Source: Phragmitibacter flavus (lineage in GTDB: Bacteria; Verrucomicrobiota; Verrucomicrobiia; Verrucomicrobiales; Verrucomicrobiaceae). Taken from it: a stretch of 64,000 nucleotides of DNA. The stretch spans positions 1-64,000 of the forward strand of contig NZ_VAUV01000013.1 of assembly GCF_005780165.1 (NCBI RefSeq), read 5' to 3'. Each line of letters begins with the position of its first letter. The stretch's first letter is position 1. A program made the position numbers and the translations under genes. Shown here piece by piece: positions 6,734 to 15,776 of the stretch. The notes under the pieces were generated by a model. The model did not search any database. It was not told the origin of the DNA and saw nothing but the letters and a program-made list of their open reading frames with translations.

Positions 6734-7552
6734 ATGTCCCCAACCATCGCAACGCGGAACCACGTGAACGTTTCCGGTCACGGTCCCGAAACGATCCTGT
6801 TCGCCCACGGATTTGGCTGCGATCAAAACATGTGGCGCTTCGTCGCCCCCGCTTTTGAAAATGAATACCGCACCGTCCTCTTCGACTACGTCGGCTCAGG
6901 AAAATCCGACACCTCCGCCTACAACGACCAGCGTTACCGCCGACTCGAAGGTTACGCCCAGGACCTCATCGACATCTGCCAGGAACTGCAGCTCCAGGAC
7001 CTCATCTTCGTCGGTCATTCCGTCAGCTGCATCATCGGCATGCTCGCGGCCAAACAACATCCCCATCTTTTCAAGACCCTCATCCTCATCGGACCCTCCC
7101 CCTGCTACATCAACCACCCGCCGCATTATCACGGCGGATTCAACCGCGAAGACCTGCAAGGCCTTCTGCACATGATGGACAAAAACCGCATGGGCTGGGC
7201 CAGCTTCCTCGCCCCCGTGGTCATGAAAAATCCTGACCAGCCCGAGCTCACCCAGGAGCTGGAACAAAGCTTCTGCGCCATCCATCCGAAAATCGCCCGA
7301 CAGTTCGCCGAGACCACCTTCTTCTCCGACAACCGCGCCGACCTCGCCCATGTCGCGCTCAACCTTCCCATCCTCATCCTGCAATGCAGCGACGACAGCA
7401 TCGCCCCGCTTGAAGTCGGCCAATACCTGCATCGCGAGCTGCCGGGAAGCACCCTGAAAATTCTCCAGGCCACCGGACATTGCCCCCATCTAAGTCATCC
7501 TCAGGAAACGATTCAACACATTGAAGACTACTTGAATACCACCTCTCGTTGA
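6734..7552 (+). CDS. rsbQ: RsbQ-like alpha/beta hydrolase
   Basis: This 272-residue protein follows Bacillus RsbQ almost motif by motif: FAHGFGCDQNMW, FDYVGSGKSD, the nucleophile elbow GHSVS (Ser96), IGPSPCYIN, YHGGF and GHCPHLSHP. The triad is Ser96, Asp220 (QCSDDSIAP) and His249. In Bacillus, RsbQ supplies a small hydrophobic ligand to the PAS domain of the phosphatase RsbP in the energy-stress branch of sigma-B control. Here the next gene, 40 bases downstream, is a PAS-containing histidine kinase, so the hydrolase probably feeds a kinase rather than a PP2C phosphatase. No sigma-B, RsbV or RsbW homologue is in the window. Confidence 0.9.
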   Translation: MSPTIATRNHVNVSGHGPETILFAHGFGCDQNMWRFVAPAFENEYRTVLFDYVGSGKSDTSAYNDQRYRRLEGYAQDLIDICQELQLQDLIFVGHSVSCIIGMLAAKQHPHLFKTLILIGPSPCYINHPPHYHGGFNREDLQGLLHMMDKNRMGWASFLAPVVMKNPDQPELTQELEQSFCAIHPKIARQFAETTFFSDNRADLAHVALNLPILILQCSDDSIAPLEVGQYLHRELPGSTLKILQATGHCPHLSHPQETIQHIEDYLNTTSR

Positions 7553-7592
7553 AACCAGCCCACCCCCCTTTGCTGCTGCCCCACCACCGCAA

Positions 7593-9089
7593 ATGGATCC
7601 TTTCTATCACACCCTTCCCTGCGGATTTCTTAGAATCCAGGAAGACGGCAAAATTTCCTTCATCAATCATACCCTGCTGCAAACGCTCGGTTATGACACG
7701 GACCATTCCTCCCTCTCAGAACTCAGGGACCTCCTCGCTCCCGCCTCGCAAATCTTCTACCAGACCCACATCTTCCCCACCCTCAAACTACGTGGCCGAC
7801 TCGACGAACTCTACCTCTCCCTGAGAAACAGCATCGGCAGAGACGTCCCCTTCCTCGCCAACGTCACCCTCCAAAATTCCGGCGACACCACCTTTCACGA
7901 AGCCGTCTTCATCCGCATCCTCGAACGCGATCGTTTCGAAGAAGAGCTGCTCGAAGCCAAGAAGGAAGCCGAACGGGCCAACCGCGCCAAAGACCAGTTC
8001 ATCGCCGCCCTGAGCCACGAGTTGCGCACCCCGCTCACCCCCATCCTGCTGATGTCGACCGCGCTGGAATCCGACCCCGGCCTGTCCGAATCCACGCGGG
8101 CGCAGATGAGCATCATGCGCCGCAATGCCGAACTCGAAGCGCGCATGATCGACGACCTTCTCGACGTCACCCGCATCGCCAATGGCAAACTCCGACTCCT
8201 GCTCTCCGACATCAATCTGCACGAACTGCTAGGATACACCGTCGAACTCGTCAGCGAAGACGCCCAGGCAAAACACATTGAACTCACCCTGTCCCTGCAA
8301 GCCGCACAACCTTACGTCCACGGCGACCCGGCCCGGCTGCAGCAAGTGTTCTGGAACCTCTTCAAGAACGCCGTCAAATTCACGCCTGAGGGCGGACAGG
8401 TGACCGTCTCGACCACCAACACCAACTCCGCCAATTCAAAAAAGATCGTCATCCGCGTGGCCGACAACGGCATCGGCATCCCCGCCAACGAGATCACCCG
8501 CATCTTCGACGCCTTCGAACAAGGCAATCGCGAAGAACCCCACCGCTTTGGCGGCCTTGGGCTCGGCCTCGCCGTCTCCGCAGGCATCACCCTCATGCAT
8601 GAAGGCACCCTCCGCGCCGAAAGCGAAGGTCCCATGACCGGATCCACCTTCATCCTTGAACTCCCGTCCATTCCAAGTCCTGCAACCCCCGCATCCCCGC
8701 CCACCGTCAACAGTGGCAGCAGCCCCTCCTCCAATCTCCGCATCCTGCTCGTCGAAGACCACGACTCCACCCGCGATGTCTTGAGCCGCCTCCTCACCCG
8801 ATCCGGCCATCAGGTCAGCGTTGCCGCCACCGCCAAAGAAGCCGTTCAGCTCGCCCGCAATCAATCGTTCGACCTCGTCATCAGCGACCTCGGCCTGCCT
8901 GACCGCAGTGGACTGGAACTCATGCGCGAACTCAAAGCCTGCTACGGCCTCGGCGGCATCGCATTGAGCGGTTACGGCATGGAGGAAGACCTCGCCAACA
9001 GCCTTGATGCCGGCTTCCACACCCACCTCGTCAAACCCGTCCGCTTCGACCAACTAAAAACCACCCTCGAGAGATACAAGGCAATCTAA
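7593..9089 (+). CDS. Hybrid histidine kinase: PAS, HisKA, HATPase, receiver
   Basis: A 498-residue soluble hybrid kinase without membrane segments. An N-terminal PAS (residues 1-110; GFLRIQEDGKISFINHTLL, then IFYQTHIFP) resembles PAS domains paired with RsbQ-type hydrolases. The HisKA box SHELRTPLTP carries His142. The ATPase shows the N box (NLFKNAVKF), G1 (DNGIGIP) and G2 (GGLGLGLA). The receiver at 382-498 has Asp432 (VISDLGLP). It follows the RsbQ-like gene and precedes a second hybrid kinase by about 100 bases. No output domain is attached, so phosphate must pass to another protein. Confidence 0.9.
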   Translation: MDPFYHTLPCGFLRIQEDGKISFINHTLLQTLGYDTDHSSLSELRDLLAPASQIFYQTHIFPTLKLRGRLDELYLSLRNSIGRDVPFLANVTLQNSGDTTFHEAVFIRILERDRFEEELLEAKKEAERANRAKDQFIAALSHELRTPLTPILLMSTALESDPGLSESTRAQMSIMRRNAELEARMIDDLLDVTRIANGKLRLLLSDINLHELLGYTVELVSEDAQAKHIELTLSLQAAQPYVHGDPARLQQVFWNLFKNAVKFTPEGGQVTVSTTNTNSANSKKIVIRVADNGIGIPANEITRIFDAFEQGNREEPHRFGGLGLGLAVSAGITLMHEGTLRAESEGPMTGSTFILELPSIPSPATPASPPTVNSGSSPSSNLRILLVEDHDSTRDVLSRLLTRSGHQVSVAATAKEAVQLARNQSFDLVISDLGLPDRSGLELMRELKACYGLGGIALSGYGMEEDLANSLDAGFHTHLVKPVRFDQLKTTLERYKAI

Positions 9090-9186
9090 AACTCCCCACC
9101 TTCCAAGTGGCACGCCGACACCAGTCTCGATTTGCATCGACCCAACCCCTCCGTAACGTCCTGGGCACCGCACCGCTTCTATTCCC

Positions 9187-11388
9187 ATGGAAAAGCCGCC
9201 TGACGAAGAATTCCACCTTCTCTCACCGAAAGGCCTGCTGCCATCGTTCGCCATCGTGGGAACTGTTACCCTCGTCTGCCTCGCCATGATGTATCTGACC
9301 GGCCTGCGTGTCATCAGCGTCCACCAGCAAATCAACCGCAAAGAGGAATCCCTCAGCACCCTGCACACCGTCATCCAGACCATCCAGGCCGCAGAAAGCG
9401 CCCAACGCGGCTACCTCCTCACCGGCAAACGGCACTACCTGGAACCCTACGAACTCGCCAGGAAAGAACTCGATGCCGATCTCGCCAGCCTGAAAGACTT
9501 CCGCCCCGTTCATGTCGATCAACTCACCACCCTCGCCCGTGAAAAAATGGCCGGGTTTGCCAAAATCATCCAATTGCGAGAAGCCGGCAACCTTGATGCT
9601 GCCATGGCCATCATCAATACCGACAAAAGTGAAAACTCCACCAGCGACATGCTCTTCTGGGCCCAGCTGATGAACAGCAACGCCGACGCGGAACTCGACC
9701 GGCTTCTCCACCTCACCGAACGCCTCGCCCACATCCGCACCACTTTGTTCGGCTTCTCCTCCCTCATCACGCTTGGCTTCCTCGCCTGGGCCTATCGACG
9801 CATCCGCCGCGAAATCGAAACCAGCCACCACGCCGCCTCCCGCTATCTCCAGCAAAAAGAAATCCTCGCCGTCGCGCTCACCAGCATCGGCGACGGCGTC
9901 ATCATGACCGACCAGCACGCCAAAATCACCCTCATGAACAAGGTCGCCGAAACCCTCACCGGCTGGACCTCCGCCGAGGCCATGGGACGCGACTGCCGCG
10001 AGGTCTACCACATCATCAGCGAAGAAAGCAGAACCGCCGTCGAGAACCCCGTCCACCAGGTCCTCCACTCCCGCCAGATCATCGGGCCCACCGACCCCAC
10101 CCTGTTGATCCGCCGCGACGGCACCGAGCTGCCCGTTGACGACAGCGGCGCCCCCATTCGAGATCAGCACGGCAATCTCCACGGCGTCGTGCTCGTCTTC
10201 CGCGACTTTACCCAGCATCGCCAGTTGGAAACCTCTCTCCGCTCCGCCAAAGAAGCCGCCGAAACCGCCAACGACACCAAGGACAACTTCCTTGCCGCCC
10301 TCTCCCATGAACTGCGCACCCCCCTTACCCCCGTCGTCGCCACCCTCGCAGGTTGGGAAACCGACCCGGCCCTCCCCGGAACCCTGCTCCCCACCGTGCA
10401 AATGATGCGGCGCAACATCGAACTCGAAGCCCGCCTCATCGACGACCTCCTCGACCTCACCCGCATCGTCAAAGGCAAACTCCCGCTCAACCTCGAACCC
10501 GTCGACCTCCACCAGCTCATTCATTCCATCAGCCAGATACTCGACAGCGAGATCCACAGCAAAAACCTCCGCCTCACCCTTCATCTCAACGCCACCTCTC
10601 ATCACGCCATGGTCGATACCGGCCGCATGCAGCAGGTGTTTCTCAACATCCTCAAAAACGCCACCAAATTCACCCCCGAAAACGGCACCATCGAAATCAC
10701 CACCCGGCAAACCGACACCCACATCCACACCATCCTCCGCGACAACGGCATCGGCATGACCCCCGAAATGCTCACCCGCCTGTTCCGTCCCTTTGAGCAG
10801 GGCACCGAACAATCCATCCGCCGTTACGGCGGCCTCGGCCTCGGCATGTCCATCTCCAAAGCCCTCGTCGAAGCCCAGAACGGCGACATCCAGGCCACCA
10901 GCGAAGGCCCCGACCAGGGCTCCACCTTCACCGTCATCCTGCCCCTCATCACCGAACCCCAACCATCCATCGCGACCAGCCAACCCCCACCTTCGAAACC
11001 CCAGACCCAAGACCAGGTCGCCCTTGAAATCCTGCTGGTGGAAGACCATGTCGATACCGCCCGTGTTCTCACCCATCTGCTCACCCGCTCCGGTCACCGC
11101 GTTGTCAACGCCGACACCGTCGCCACCGCCCTCGCCACCTTCAGCCAGCACCCCTTCGATCTACTCCTTTGCGACCTCGGCCTGCCCGACGGCAGCGGCC
11201 TCAACATCATCCGCACCATTCGCCAAACCAGCTCCCTCCCCGCCATCGCCCTCACCGGCTACGGCATGGAAGAAGACATCGAAGCCTGCAAAACCGCCGG
11301 CTTCAACGCCCACCTCACCAAACCCCTCAACCTGCAAAAGCTCAAAGAAGTCATCAGCAGCGTCACCGCCCCGGCACCTTTGTCATAA
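9187..11388 (+). CDS. Membrane hybrid histidine kinase: CHASE3, PAS, HisKA, HATPase, receiver
   Basis: A 733-residue sensor. A membrane segment (residues about 18-40) leads to a CHASE3 extracytoplasmic region (ESAQRGYLLTGKRHYLEPY) and a second membrane segment (about 187-203). The cytoplasmic part has a PAS domain (225-345), a HisKA box with His374 (SHELRTPLTP), an ATPase with DNGIGMT and GGLGLGMS, and a C-terminal receiver with Asp663 (LCDLGLPDGSG). The kinase core and receiver closely match those of the preceding gene, suggesting duplication with exchange of the input part. No output domain is present. Confidence 0.9.
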   Translation: MEKPPDEEFHLLSPKGLLPSFAIVGTVTLVCLAMMYLTGLRVISVHQQINRKEESLSTLHTVIQTIQAAESAQRGYLLTGKRHYLEPYELARKELDADLASLKDFRPVHVDQLTTLAREKMAGFAKIIQLREAGNLDAAMAIINTDKSENSTSDMLFWAQLMNSNADAELDRLLHLTERLAHIRTTLFGFSSLITLGFLAWAYRRIRREIETSHHAASRYLQQKEILAVALTSIGDGVIMTDQHAKITLMNKVAETLTGWTSAEAMGRDCREVYHIISEESRTAVENPVHQVLHSRQIIGPTDPTLLIRRDGTELPVDDSGAPIRDQHGNLHGVVLVFRDFTQHRQLETSLRSAKEAAETANDTKDNFLAALSHELRTPLTPVVATLAGWETDPALPGTLLPTVQMMRRNIELEARLIDDLLDLTRIVKGKLPLNLEPVDLHQLIHSISQILDSEIHSKNLRLTLHLNATSHHAMVDTGRMQQVFLNILKNATKFTPENGTIEITTRQTDTHIHTILRDNGIGMTPEMLTRLFRPFEQGTEQSIRRYGGLGLGMSISKALVEAQNGDIQATSEGPDQGSTFTVILPLITEPQPSIATSQPPPSKPQTQDQVALEILLVEDHVDTARVLTHLLTRSGHRVVNADTVATALATFSQHPFDLLLCDLGLPDGSGLNIIRTIRQTSSLPAIALTGYGMEEDIEACKTAGFNAHLTKPLNLQKLKEVISSVTAPAPLS

Positions 11389-11510
11389 CTTCCAGATACT
11401 CCCACGCTGCTGCTGGTTGGTCCGCAACTCACGCCTCCGTGCCGTTCCTTTTTCCTTTGCAGACTCTCACAGGCCCTGATCACCCTCCATGCAATCAATG
11501 ACATCCAGAT

Positions 11511-12698
11511 TTGCACCCCCCTCCGAATCCCACCGTGCAAGATCAACGAGCGAATGACGAATCTTTACCCTGTTCCCGTTTCGCAGACTATTTGCAGCCC
11601 AAAATCAACGCCGTTTTGGAACGGTGGATGGAGGACGTCAGGCACGATCCCAGCCTGCCCAAGGCGGATGAACTTCCCAAAACGCTGCTGAAGGACCATG
11701 TCCCCGATCTGCTTCATTCGTTCATCGAGTTCCTGCGCTCAGGCCGCAACGACGCCAATCAGAATGCCAAAAAACATGGCACAGAACGTTGGGGCCAGGG
11801 TTACAGCATCAAGGAACTGATCTGGGAAATCCACCAACTGCGCGCCGTGCTGCTGCGCGAAATGGTCACCTTCGCCAAGGTCGAATCCGATTCGCTCACC
11901 AGTTATGCCGCGGCCTGCAAGGCGACTGACGTGTTCTTCGATGAGATGCAGGTCGTGTCGGTGGCGAAATTCATGGAGGAAAGAGAATTGGCACAGCGGC
12001 GGTCCGATGTGGCACGTCTGCGCCTGGTGCGCTCCATCTCCCATGAGCTTCGCAACACGCTCAACGCCCTCGGACTTTCGTCGATGCTGCTGGATGACAG
12101 CGGCTCCGAATCCACTGACACCGTCAAACTCCAGCTCGATCAAAGCTGCCTGCAAATGCAGGAGGTGCTGGACGATCTTTTGGGTCTTTCCCACATTTTG
12201 GGACCCAACCGCAGCCTGCGAATGTCGTTTGTTGATGCACCGAAACTGCTGGAAGAAATGGACGCGATCTTCCGACCCGTGGCCGAAGCCAAAGGTCTGC
12301 GCTTCTCCACCTCCATAAAGGGCGATCTGAGCCATCTGGTCGGCGATGAAGCCAAGGTGCGGCAAATCACCCAAATCATGGTGTCCAACGCCATCACCTA
12401 CACTTCCACCGGATCAGTCGACCTCTCTTTTGACGAGTTGGATGGACAACAATGGGCGATTGTGGTGAAGGACACCGGCATCGGCATTGCCAAAGAAGAC
12501 CGTGAGCACATCTTCTCCGAGTTCTACCGGGTGGAAAACGAATCGCCCCTTCGCGGTTCCGGTCTTGGACTCGCCATCATGACCGCCGTGGTGGATCTGC
12601 TGGGCGGTTCGATTCATCTGGAATCCGCCATGGACGAAGGCAGCCAGTTCCGTGTGGTTTTGCCCAGTCAACCCAGTATCAGTGATCCAATTAGTTGA
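11511..12698 (+). CDS. Histidine kinase with RsbRD-type N-terminal domain
   Basis: A 395-residue protein if read from the TTG at 11511; a GTG at 11535 is the other candidate, as no in-frame ATG lies near. Residues 20-160 look like an RsbRD_N/RsbR-type sensor domain (helical; FADYLQPKINAVLERWMEDV, ELIWEIHQLRAVLL). The HisKA-like box SISHELRNTLNAL carries His178. The ATPase shows DTGIGIAKED and GSGLGLAI. RsbR-type input domains usually belong to stressosomes with STAS domains; here the domain drives a kinase. It ends 14 bases from the stop of the convergent kinase at 12713, which has the same build. Confidence 0.8.
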   Translation: MHPPPNPTVQDQRANDESLPCSRFADYLQPKINAVLERWMEDVRHDPSLPKADELPKTLLKDHVPDLLHSFIEFLRSGRNDANQNAKKHGTERWGQGYSIKELIWEIHQLRAVLLREMVTFAKVESDSLTSYAAACKATDVFFDEMQVVSVAKFMEERELAQRRSDVARLRLVRSISHELRNTLNALGLSSMLLDDSGSESTDTVKLQLDQSCLQMQEVLDDLLGLSHILGPNRSLRMSFVDAPKLLEEMDAIFRPVAEAKGLRFSTSIKGDLSHLVGDEAKVRQITQIMVSNAITYTSTGSVDLSFDELDGQQWAIVVKDTGIGIAKEDREHIFSEFYRVENESPLRGSGLGLAIMTAVVDLLGGSIHLESAMDEGSQFRVVLPSQPSISDPIS

Positions 12699-12712
12699 TG
12701 CTGGCCGTCAGT

Positions 12713-13855
12713 TTAATTTAAAGGCATCGCATGCCTTGGAAGATCAATGGTAAACACGCAGCCCTGCTCGTCGGGTTTGTTGCGGACGCTGAGGATTCCA
12801 TCATTGGCCTCGACACCCCGACGGGCAATCGAAAGACCAAGCCCCATGCCGCTTTTGTCTTTTCCGCCTTGGGTGAAGGGTTCAAACATCGTTTCCGCCT
12901 CGCCGGGAGGCAGTCCATCGCCGTGATCCTCAACATCGATCAATATCCGGTCCCCGACCGAATAGGCATTCAAGATCACTTCGGTTCCACGGTGGGTAAA
13001 TTTGAAGGCGTTCTGCAAAAGATTGCCCACCGCCGAGAGCAGCAGATCGCGGTCGGCATCCAACGCAAGCCGCAGATCGACTGCGGAAACCGTGAGCACA
13101 CATTCCTTTACCTTCGCCTCGAGCGCGGCGGACAGTTTGATTTCACCAATGAAGTCAGAAAGGGCAAACAGGGCGTTGCGCACCGGAAGACCGGCAATCA
13201 GGCGCACATCCGTGAGGGAACGATCAATCAGTGATCCCATGCCTACAAGAGAACGGTTTAGCACTGAACCCGTGGCACCACTGAGACTGAGGTTGCCATC
13301 CTTGATCGCGAAAAGGGCGAGGGTCGCTGTATTGAGGAGGTTGCGCAGTTCATGGGTGAAAAATCCGATCTGCACGTTGAGCGTCTGAATGTGTTTGTCG
13401 GCCATCACGAAGTCTCTCTGATAGTTGAACTCCGTGACCGCCATCGCAATGGCATTGTCCAAACAGCGGTTGAGCGTGCGAAACTCATCCACTTCGACCG
13501 GCTCATCGACCTCAAACGCAAGATCGGTGATCGACTGGCAGAGATCGCCGTAGTCATGCACCACCTGTTCCACGGTAAATCCCCGTCTCAGCAATTCCCG
13601 ACCATGCTGCGCTGCGACCTCACTCAATTCGGAAAGAGCGGGTTTGCCACCGCCCGAAGCACCGGAAACCTTGCGGCTCTCCATCGGCTTGTCGGTCTGT
13701 TCAACCTTCAGGGTCTTGATCAACTGATCGAGGAAAAAAGGCACCCCGTGATCCATCTCGTCCGCCGTGGCTTCAGGCGAAGCACGCTTTGCCACCTTGG
13801 CCCGGCAGCGCTCAATTAGCTCCGCCCGTTGGTTGGTGAGAAAAACATGGAGCAT
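12713..13855 (-). CDS. Histidine kinase with RsbRD-type N-terminal domain (convergent paralogue)
   Basis: A 380-residue kinase with an ATG start at 13855. The first 150 residues are helical and resemble an RsbRD_N sensor region (FLTNQRAELIERCRAKVAK, AQHGRELLRRGFTVEQVVHDY). His168 sits in FFTHELRNLLNTA, and the ATPase region shows NLLQNAFKF, EDHGDGLPPGE and GMGLGLSIARRG. It is arranged tail to tail with the similar kinase ending at 12698, and the two probably form a pair. No receiver is attached. The phosphotransfer partner is not in this window. Confidence 0.8.
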   Translation of the reverse strand: MLHVFLTNQRAELIERCRAKVAKRASPEATADEMDHGVPFFLDQLIKTLKVEQTDKPMESRKVSGASGGGKPALSELSEVAAQHGRELLRRGFTVEQVVHDYGDLCQSITDLAFEVDEPVEVDEFRTLNRCLDNAIAMAVTEFNYQRDFVMADKHIQTLNVQIGFFTHELRNLLNTATLALFAIKDGNLSLSGATGSVLNRSLVGMGSLIDRSLTDVRLIAGLPVRNALFALSDFIGEIKLSAALEAKVKECVLTVSAVDLRLALDADRDLLLSAVGNLLQNAFKFTHRGTEVILNAYSVGDRILIDVEDHGDGLPPGEAETMFEPFTQGGKDKSGMGLGLSIARRGVEANDGILSVRNKPDEQGCVFTIDLPRHAMPLN

Positions 13856-13933: not shown

Positions 13934-14839
13934 TCATTTCATGGATTGCGTCGCCATCATCGCAGGAACCGCAGAATCATCAGAAATCCCAACCTCTCGA
14001 ACATACAAATCCACTTCAGACTCAATAAATGCCTTGGCCGTGCCCAGATAACTTCCTGCAATAGGCGGCACGTGCTCAGAATGCCTCGAAACCGCCACGG
14101 GAATGTAGTTCGAGGTAGTGAGGATGCCCCAGCTTGGATCAAAGCCGACCCAACCGGCTCCCGGCAGATACAGTTCAGCCCAACCATGCATGGACATGCG
14201 ACCGCTGATGTCAGGAGAATACATGTAGCCGCTCACAAAGCGGGCCGCGAGCCCCAGATGGCGGCAGGTTTCAATAAATAAAGTGGCGGAGTCTCGACAG
14301 GATCCGGTGCCCTTCTCCAAGGTTTCCGCCGGGGACTGCACGCCTTTCTCCATGCGGCGCTGATAGCCGATGGATTTATAAATGTGAAGGTTAAGTTGCT
14401 GCAACAAGTCCAGCGTGCCGAGTCTTTTGCCGGGATGCCATAAATCGTAAAGCCAGTCGCGGATTTCGTCGATGTCGCGCACATAGATGCTGCGACTAAG
14501 TGGCCGGAGTTCCGCTCCTAAATCATGCTCGTAAGTGAAAGGATATTCCATCGCCTCATGGGCAATGACAAAATTGAACGGGTTATCCTCCCGGACATTA
14601 ATGAAAAACTCAGCCTCAATCACCAGCTCCAACGCGGTTGAATTAAAATCCACCAGCGCGATGTTGTTTTCATACGGATCACGAATCCATCGGGTTCGAT
14701 GCGGCACGGAGATTTCGATGGAACAGGATTCGAGATCAATGGCGTGACTTTCGCGAGGTCGCATCATCAGTTGATGCGTGCTGAAGGAGACGTGGGTCGA
14801 GTATCGATAGCTCGTCCGATGGTGGATGTGGATTTTCAA
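13934..14839 (-). CDS. Transglutaminase-like cysteine protease family protein
   Basis: A 301-residue protein in which the TTG at 14839 is the likely start, because the family begins with a beta-strand like KIHIHHRTSYRYS. It has the bacterial transglutaminase-like N-terminal region (residues 1-85) followed by a transglutaminase core. Expected catalytic residues are Cys in GTGSCRDSATLF, His in SMHGWAELYLPG and Asp in GFDPSWG. Such proteins cleave or form amide bonds in peptides. The next gene upstream (14880) is a diverged family member in the same direction, 40 bases away, so the two form an operon. Circularly permuted ATP-grasp and alpha-E partners seen elsewhere are absent here. Confidence 0.88.
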   Translation of the reverse strand: MKIHIHHRTSYRYSTHVSFSTHQLMMRPRESHAIDLESCSIEISVPHRTRWIRDPYENNIALVDFNSTALELVIEAEFFINVREDNPFNFVIAHEAMEYPFTYEHDLGAELRPLSRSIYVRDIDEIRDWLYDLWHPGKRLGTLDLLQQLNLHIYKSIGYQRRMEKGVQSPAETLEKGTGSCRDSATLFIETCRHLGLAARFVSGYMYSPDISGRMSMHGWAELYLPGAGWVGFDPSWGILTTSNYIPVAVSRHSEHVPPIAGSYLGTAKAFIESEVDLYVREVGISDDSAVPAMMATQSMK

Positions 14840-14879
14840 ATAGGTGGTGTTTCTTATTCTTATTTAGTAAGCGGGTGTT

Positions 14880-15776
14880 TCAGGAAATGCGCAGTTCCAC
14901 CGTCCCATCAATGCGTTTGGAGAGATCAACCGGATCGCCCACCGACACGGTGTTCGGAGGCACCTGATAGGCCCAAACCATGAAATGACTCAAGGTCGCC
15001 GGACCATAAATGGTGGAAAAGGCACCGTCCACTGCGTCCATGCCATGGCCCAGTTTGATCCGCCCAATTCGCGGCACGTTAAATCGCGCATCAATGGTGA
15101 ACCATTCACCGAGATAGACCTCGCCATATGCATGGAAATCCATCGGGGTGCCGTTGTCGAAATAACCGATGTCTGGAAGGTGTCCTGTCACATATCGCGT
15201 TGGCAAATTGAATGCCCGGCACAGGGCCACCACAAGGTGGGCGAAGTCACGACATACTCCATAACCGCGCTGCAACACATCGAAGGCGGTGAGATCCGGA
15301 CTTCCTGAACCGTAGCGATACTCAATGTTGTCATGGACCCAGTCGCAGATGGCGTGAACCCGCTGCATGCCGTTGTTGATGTGACCGAACTGCTGCCACG
15401 CAAAGTTGGAGAGGGTGTCGGAATCGCAATACCGGCTTGGCAACGTGTAACGAAGCAGCTCCTGTGGCAGCTCATTGACTGGCAGGGAATTCAGCACCTG
15501 TTCGTGTTTGTCAGGCAATGATGAAACGGCGACCAGCGCGTCCATGTTGATGACGTTGCGACCTGGCACCAGCATCGACCGGCAGGTGACGTTGCCATGC
15601 GAATCATGAAATTCGTAGGGATTTAGATAGGGACCGTAGTCACAGCTTTCCTGAAGCACAAGGCAGCCACGATCACGACGCGGGCGCAGCAGATACGAAA
15701 TGGGGGTGAAGAGAGAAGTTTCGTAAACAAGGTTGCACCCGACGCGAACAGTGAGATCAAGGTAGTCTGAATTCAT
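14880..15776 (-). CDS. Transglutaminase-like cysteine protease family protein (second copy)
   Basis: A 298-residue protein starting at an ATG. It has the N-terminal beta region (DLTVRVGCNLVYETS) and a transglutaminase core with Cys in GYGVCRDFAHLVVALCRAF, His in DFHAYGEVYLGE and Asp in TIDARFN. It carries the family's C-terminal signature GRIKLGHGMDAVDGAF. It is the first gene of a two-gene unit with the paralogue at 13934 and is divergent from the M20 deacylase at 15923. The substrate is unknown; a joint role in peptide or isopeptide breakdown is an inference. Confidence 0.87.
   Translation of the reverse strand: MNSDYLDLTVRVGCNLVYETSLFTPISYLLRPRRDRGCLVLQESCDYGPYLNPYEFHDSHGNVTCRSMLVPGRNVINMDALVAVSSLPDKHEQVLNSLPVNELPQELLRYTLPSRYCDSDTLSNFAWQQFGHINNGMQRVHAICDWVHDNIEYRYGSGSPDLTAFDVLQRGYGVCRDFAHLVVALCRAFNLPTRYVTGHLPDIGYFDNGTPMDFHAYGEVYLGEWFTIDARFNVPRIGRIKLGHGMDAVDGAFSTIYGPATLSHFMVWAYQVPPNTVSVGDPVDLSKRIDGTVELRIS

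Follow-up and report, generated by a model that had tools for sequence, protein, structure and literature searches.

RsbQ and PAS domains of the RsbP type form a bipartite sensing module that was described in 2011 (Nadezhdin, Brody and Price; PMC3183031). Its reported outputs are PPM phosphatases, histidine kinases (hybrid kinases included) and diguanylate cyclases; three of the kinases in that study already carried a C-terminal receiver. The PAS domains of the class are marked by residues C10, L13, L48, F55, H/Y59, P62, E72 and P86, with a basic residue common at position 53. They also lack the DIT motif and are joined to the output by a linker that is helical or a coiled coil. In Bacillus subtilis RsbP, F55A breaks the contact with RsbQ, and alanine at Q53 or C56 has no significant effect (PMC3183031). 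A search of the open-access literature found no experiment on any kinase-type module.

The locus studied here belongs to Phragmitibacter flavus (NZ_VAUV01000013.1, assembly GCF_005780165.1). The window, that is the whole stretch of DNA analysed, comprises positions 1-64,000, and the block under study spans 6,734-13,855. An earlier note had described RsbQ followed on the same strand by two hybrid kinases and an RsbRD-type kinase, and this gene order is confirmed. All five open reading frames of the block are present:

6734-7552, plus strand: RsbQ homologue, an alpha/beta hydrolase of 272 residues (phmmer match to 1wom, 80 RsbQ loci, Abhydrolase_1).
7593-9089, plus strand: HK1, RsbP-type PAS (residues 6-124), helical linker, HisKA (H142), HATPase and receiver (D432) (Pfam, PAS profile, class residues, predicted fold, catalytic motifs).
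9187-11388, plus strand: HK2, CHASE3, generic PAS, HisKA (H374), HATPase and receiver (D663) (Pfam).
11511-12698, plus strand: soluble RsbRD_N, HisKA (H178) and HATPase kinase (Pfam RsbRD_N, E 1.3e-8).
12713-13855, minus strand: HK_B, all-helical N-terminal domain, kinase (H168) and HATPase, convergent to the RsbRD kinase (Pfam HATPase, 7e-20).

The phospho-acceptor motif and an ATP-binding domain are present in each of the four kinases, and both receivers have the acceptor Asp and the conserved Lys. The flanks of the block carry a trypsin-transglutaminase fusion (270-2480) on one side and two tandem transglutaminase-like genes (13934-15776) on the other.

The top PDB match of the first protein is B. 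subtilis RsbQ (1wom), along its whole length (phmmer, E 4e-108). Pfam assigns it to Abhydrolase_1 (4e-23) and its identity to the 80 RsbQ loci is 53-66%. Judged from its sequence, it is a true RsbQ homologue, as the earlier note had proposed. Ser96 and His249 of the catalytic triad are where that note had placed them. The catalytic Asp, given there as D220, is most likely D221, the second D of DDSIAP, at the DxxxP position in the alignment with 1wom; here we presume, in part, the usual layout of the alpha/beta hydrolase fold. RsbQ is the bacterial relative of the plant karrikin and strigolactone receptors.

HK1 begins with an ATG at 7593, 40 nt after the RsbQ stop codon at 7552. The 498-residue protein has a PAS-HisKA-HATPase-REC organization. 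Pfam finds the kinase and receiver domains and does not detect the N-terminal PAS. A profile built from the RsbP-type PAS (the first 125 residues of HK1) gives 142 bits with this domain versus 10 bits with the PAS of HK2, and it picks up the RsbQ-adjacent gene in nearly every locus. All eight class residues (C10, L13, L48, F55, H59, P62, E72 and P86) are present, with numbering identical to that of Bacillus RsbP. At position 53 HK1 shares Q with B. subtilis, R or K being common there in our set of loci; residue 56 is Y versus C in B. subtilis RsbP. The DIT motif is absent at the end of the domain, where the sequence reads IRILERDRFEEELLEAKKEAERANRAKDQF. The AlphaFold2 model has a PAS fold (pLDDT 91), with PAS and LOV domains as top structural matches, and predicts a helix at 112-125 after the PAS; a PDB sequence search gave weak generic matches only. 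The profile, the class residues and the predicted fold together identify this domain as a genuine RsbP-class PAS. The HisKA and HATPase_c catalytic motifs are intact. HK1 has no PPM/SpoIIE phosphatase domain (PF07228), and the four PF07228 domains of the genome lie elsewhere. Thus, a PAS-histidine kinase does stand in RsbP's place beside RsbQ.

Scanning 84,980 bacterial and archaeal species genomes yielded 585 confirmed RsbQ relatives, the best 80 of which were kept. Adding three loci from the same order, a second copy in locus L024 and the window gave 85 RsbQ genes. A gene with an RsbP-type PAS lies directly downstream in 81 of the 85, from at least eight phyla, a count that may be biased upwards since the 80 database loci were chosen for closeness to the query. 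These 81 genes encode PAS-HK (41), PAS-HK-REC (9), PAS-GGDEF (22) and PAS-PPM (2) proteins; the remaining 7 gave no output domain, some of these loci being broken by a contig end or a disrupted frame. Kinases therefore make up 50 of the 81, nine of them with a receiver, the window included. The survey repeats and enlarges the 2011 set of outputs. In the RsbQ tree, the output types are clustered, yet they switch repeatedly. The window RsbQ does not fall into any small well-supported clade, and because its position is not firm we do not claim horizontal transfer.

Four RsbQ genes do not follow this pattern: L018 stops at a contig end, L028 yielded no PAS, L074 has a PAS-cyclase gene upstream and L076 is a fusion. 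In L074 (6880-8819, Planktothrix paucivesiculata), one protein combines an RsbP-type PAS with a class III nucleotidyl cyclase domain (PF00211, 3e-20), and its gene lies just upstream of RsbQ; the gene order is reversed and the output lies outside the three classes of 2011. In L076 (7977-9149, Modicisalibacter luteus), RsbQ and the RsbP-type PAS form a single 390-residue chain with no output domain. Unless it results from a sequencing error, this fusion would be natural support for a direct RsbQ-PAS contact. Three Paenibacillus loci (L054, L058 and L061) have PAS-only genes of 152-163 residues, with no output domain, directly 3' of RsbQ, followed in L054 and L061 by a long opposite-strand ORF. 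Two complete RsbQ-PAS-GGDEF modules occupy about 5 kb in Sporosarcina gallistercoris (L024:4480-9807).

Within the family of P. flavus, RsbQ is rare: it occurs in 3 of 59 genomes, that of the window being one of them, and is followed by a PAS-HK-REC gene in all three. The proteins of the two other genomes (G414 and G409) have the same architecture as HK1 and 48% identity. The genus of G414, searched in 48 genomes, yielded no further RsbQ. The RsbQ-HK1 arrangement is thus ordinary, since it was published in 2011 and recurs in most related loci examined. It represents the kinase branch of the published module, common today and not peculiar to this locus.

The earlier note had stressed that the receivers of the block lack output domains. 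HK1 and HK2 do end in a receiver, but this is usual for kinase-type modules: the receiver is fused in 9 of 50, and a stand-alone receiver of 130-160 residues lies directly beside the kinase in 15 of 27 Bacteroidota loci (e.g. L030, L035, L041, L045, L062 and L070), compared with 0 of 22 cyclase loci. In that branch, the stand-alone receiver is likely the cognate phosphate acceptor.

Taken together, the reading that best explains the locus, and in which we have high confidence, is that RsbQ and HK1 form a kinase-type RsbQ-PAS module, with HK2, the RsbRD kinase and HK_B as separate neighbours. By analogy with the B. subtilis work, RsbQ would contact the N-terminal PAS dimer of HK1, or its active site would make a signal or deliver it to that dimer. 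The PAS would then act through the helical linker (residues ~112-135) on the HisKA-HATPase core, altering autophosphorylation at H142, after which the phosphate would pass to the protein's own receiver at D432. The final target is presumably not encoded nearby. Because the genome has no stand-alone HPt, the HK1 receiver is most likely an intramolecular switch or phosphate sink; otherwise H142 may pass its phosphate to an orphan regulator encoded at another site. HK2, the RsbRD kinase and HK_B would be sensor kinases adjacent by chance.

An alternative is that the entire block is one branched network, with RsbQ-HK1, HK2, the RsbRD kinase and HK_B combining energy signals with other stress cues and acting on a common set of receivers. 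RsbQ and the first three kinases lie on a single strand, separated by 40, 97 and 122 nt, which fits such a network, but promoter and terminator scans of the region gave nothing above chance. HK2 is 46% identical to the HK-REC part of HK1. However, the genome encodes 13 paralogues of the HK1 kinase-receiver core (E <= 1e-40), and sequence comparison puts HK2 in this large hybrid-kinase family rather than in the RsbQ module, its PAS not being of the RsbP class. A recent tandem duplication of HK1 into HK2 was rejected, since two other paralogues score higher than HK2 against the HK1 core. The RsbRD kinase starts with TTG at 11511, an in-frame GTG at 11535 being a likely alternative, and has a kinase core instead of a STAS domain. 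Of the 58 other family genomes, 5 encode homologues of it, and all five lack RsbQ; in two genomes (G216 and G401) the homologue faces a convergent PAS hybrid kinase gene, which could favour the network. The N-termini of HK2 and the RsbRD kinase show no linkage to RsbQ in any other locus examined, the partial match to HK2 in L017 and the weak one in L037 being of CHASE3/PAS type only. The block therefore fails as a unit, and the idea that RsbQ and the four kinases are conserved together was rejected. The earlier note had taken the linkage of RsbQ and the kinases in related genomes as the test of its reading: it holds for HK1 but not for HK2 or the RsbRD kinase; HK_B lies near RsbQ in one relative. 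We consider the network unlikely.

That relative is G414, where 5.9 kb separate HK_B from RsbQ-HK1; the two are on opposite strands and TPR genes lie in the interval. HK_B orthologues (67-79% identity) are present in three family genomes with no flanking genes in common, and G409, the third RsbQ genome of the family, gave no match. The earlier note had placed RsbR-like inputs on two kinases. This is right for 11511-12698; the HK_B N-terminal domain has no Pfam match and compares with RsbRD_N kinases at an hhalign probability of 41% (P 3e-4). Its model (pLDDT 69) gives globin-like Foldseek matches (E >= 0.01) and is too weak to prove the fold. The domain is probably RsbRD- or globin-like, "RsbRD-type" being weakly supported. 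RsbQ-HK1 and HK_B might form a conserved cross-talking pair in some Verrucomicrobiota, with energy-type and stressosome-type signals meeting at phosphotransfer, which we find distinctly improbable. The proximity in G414 is the one observation in favour of a link to any kinase other than HK1; an ancestral neighbourhood without function could account for it.

The reading of the earlier note, a stress chain rebuilt on phosphorelay chemistry in place of the Bacillus partner-switching output, is largely refuted and very improbable. It drew on the kinase found where the RsbP phosphatase would be and on the RsbRD_N domain of a kinase. As that note had said, searches for STAS and sigma-70 region 2 in the window were empty. 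However, contig C3 (191203-196189 of genome G000; L110:4204-9190) carries a stressosome-type RsbR-RsbS-RsbT operon, encoding in a row RsbRD_N-STAS, STAS, an RsbT-like ATPase and an ATPase-SpoIIE protein. It is followed by an 813-residue kinase with its own HATPase_c_2 domain, GAF, HK and receiver. On contig C5, a Cache-HAMP-SpoIIE phosphatase is clustered with STAS (RsbV) and RsbW-like genes. Because the genome retains both the RsbR/S/T/X-like and the RsbV/W/PPM-like modules, the window kinases have not replaced the partner-switching parts. Moreover, the two HPt domains of the genome both lie within large proteins, and kinase-type modules extend across many phyla with no need for sigma-B ancestry.

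Finally, it is hardly credible that RsbQ is an ordinary metabolic esterase with HK1 beside it by coincidence: alpha/beta hydrolases are often metabolic, and NCBIfam gives sub-threshold matches to PcaD and others, but the RsbQ match is closer than that to any metabolic enzyme and the pairing with a PAS gene is kept across phyla.

The RsbQ-HK1 pairing is therefore sound and published as a class, and the block-level story is not supported. The results confirm the RsbQ-PAS pair as a portable sensor module and add well-placed family members for probing RsbQ in a kinase context, with autophosphorylation as a simple readout. A clean kinase assay would be useful because RsbQ is kin to the karrikin and strigolactone receptors and the triggering cue of the module was unknown in 2011 (PMC3183031). 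The window locus is one among many suited to it.

Among the closest known systems, the stressosome RsbR(D)-S-T module shares RsbRD_N with one window kinase, and probably with HK_B, but stressosome RsbR combines an N-terminal RsbRD with a C-terminal STAS domain, which is absent from the window; the RsbR-S-T operon of this genome is on C3. Like B. subtilis RsbQ-RsbP, the energy-stress branch of sigma-B, the locus pairs an RsbQ whose triad is intact with an RsbP-class PAS that keeps the functional residues. The output of HK1 is a histidine kinase with a receiver, whereas RsbP is a PPM phosphatase, and the locus lacks sigma-B, RsbV and RsbW. From the kinase branch of the published module (PMC3183031) we found no difference other than the host, a member of the Verrucomicrobiota, which the text of that paper does not mention: in both, RsbQ is immediately upstream, the RsbP-type PAS is most N-terminal, and a helical linker leads to a kinase with a C-terminal receiver.
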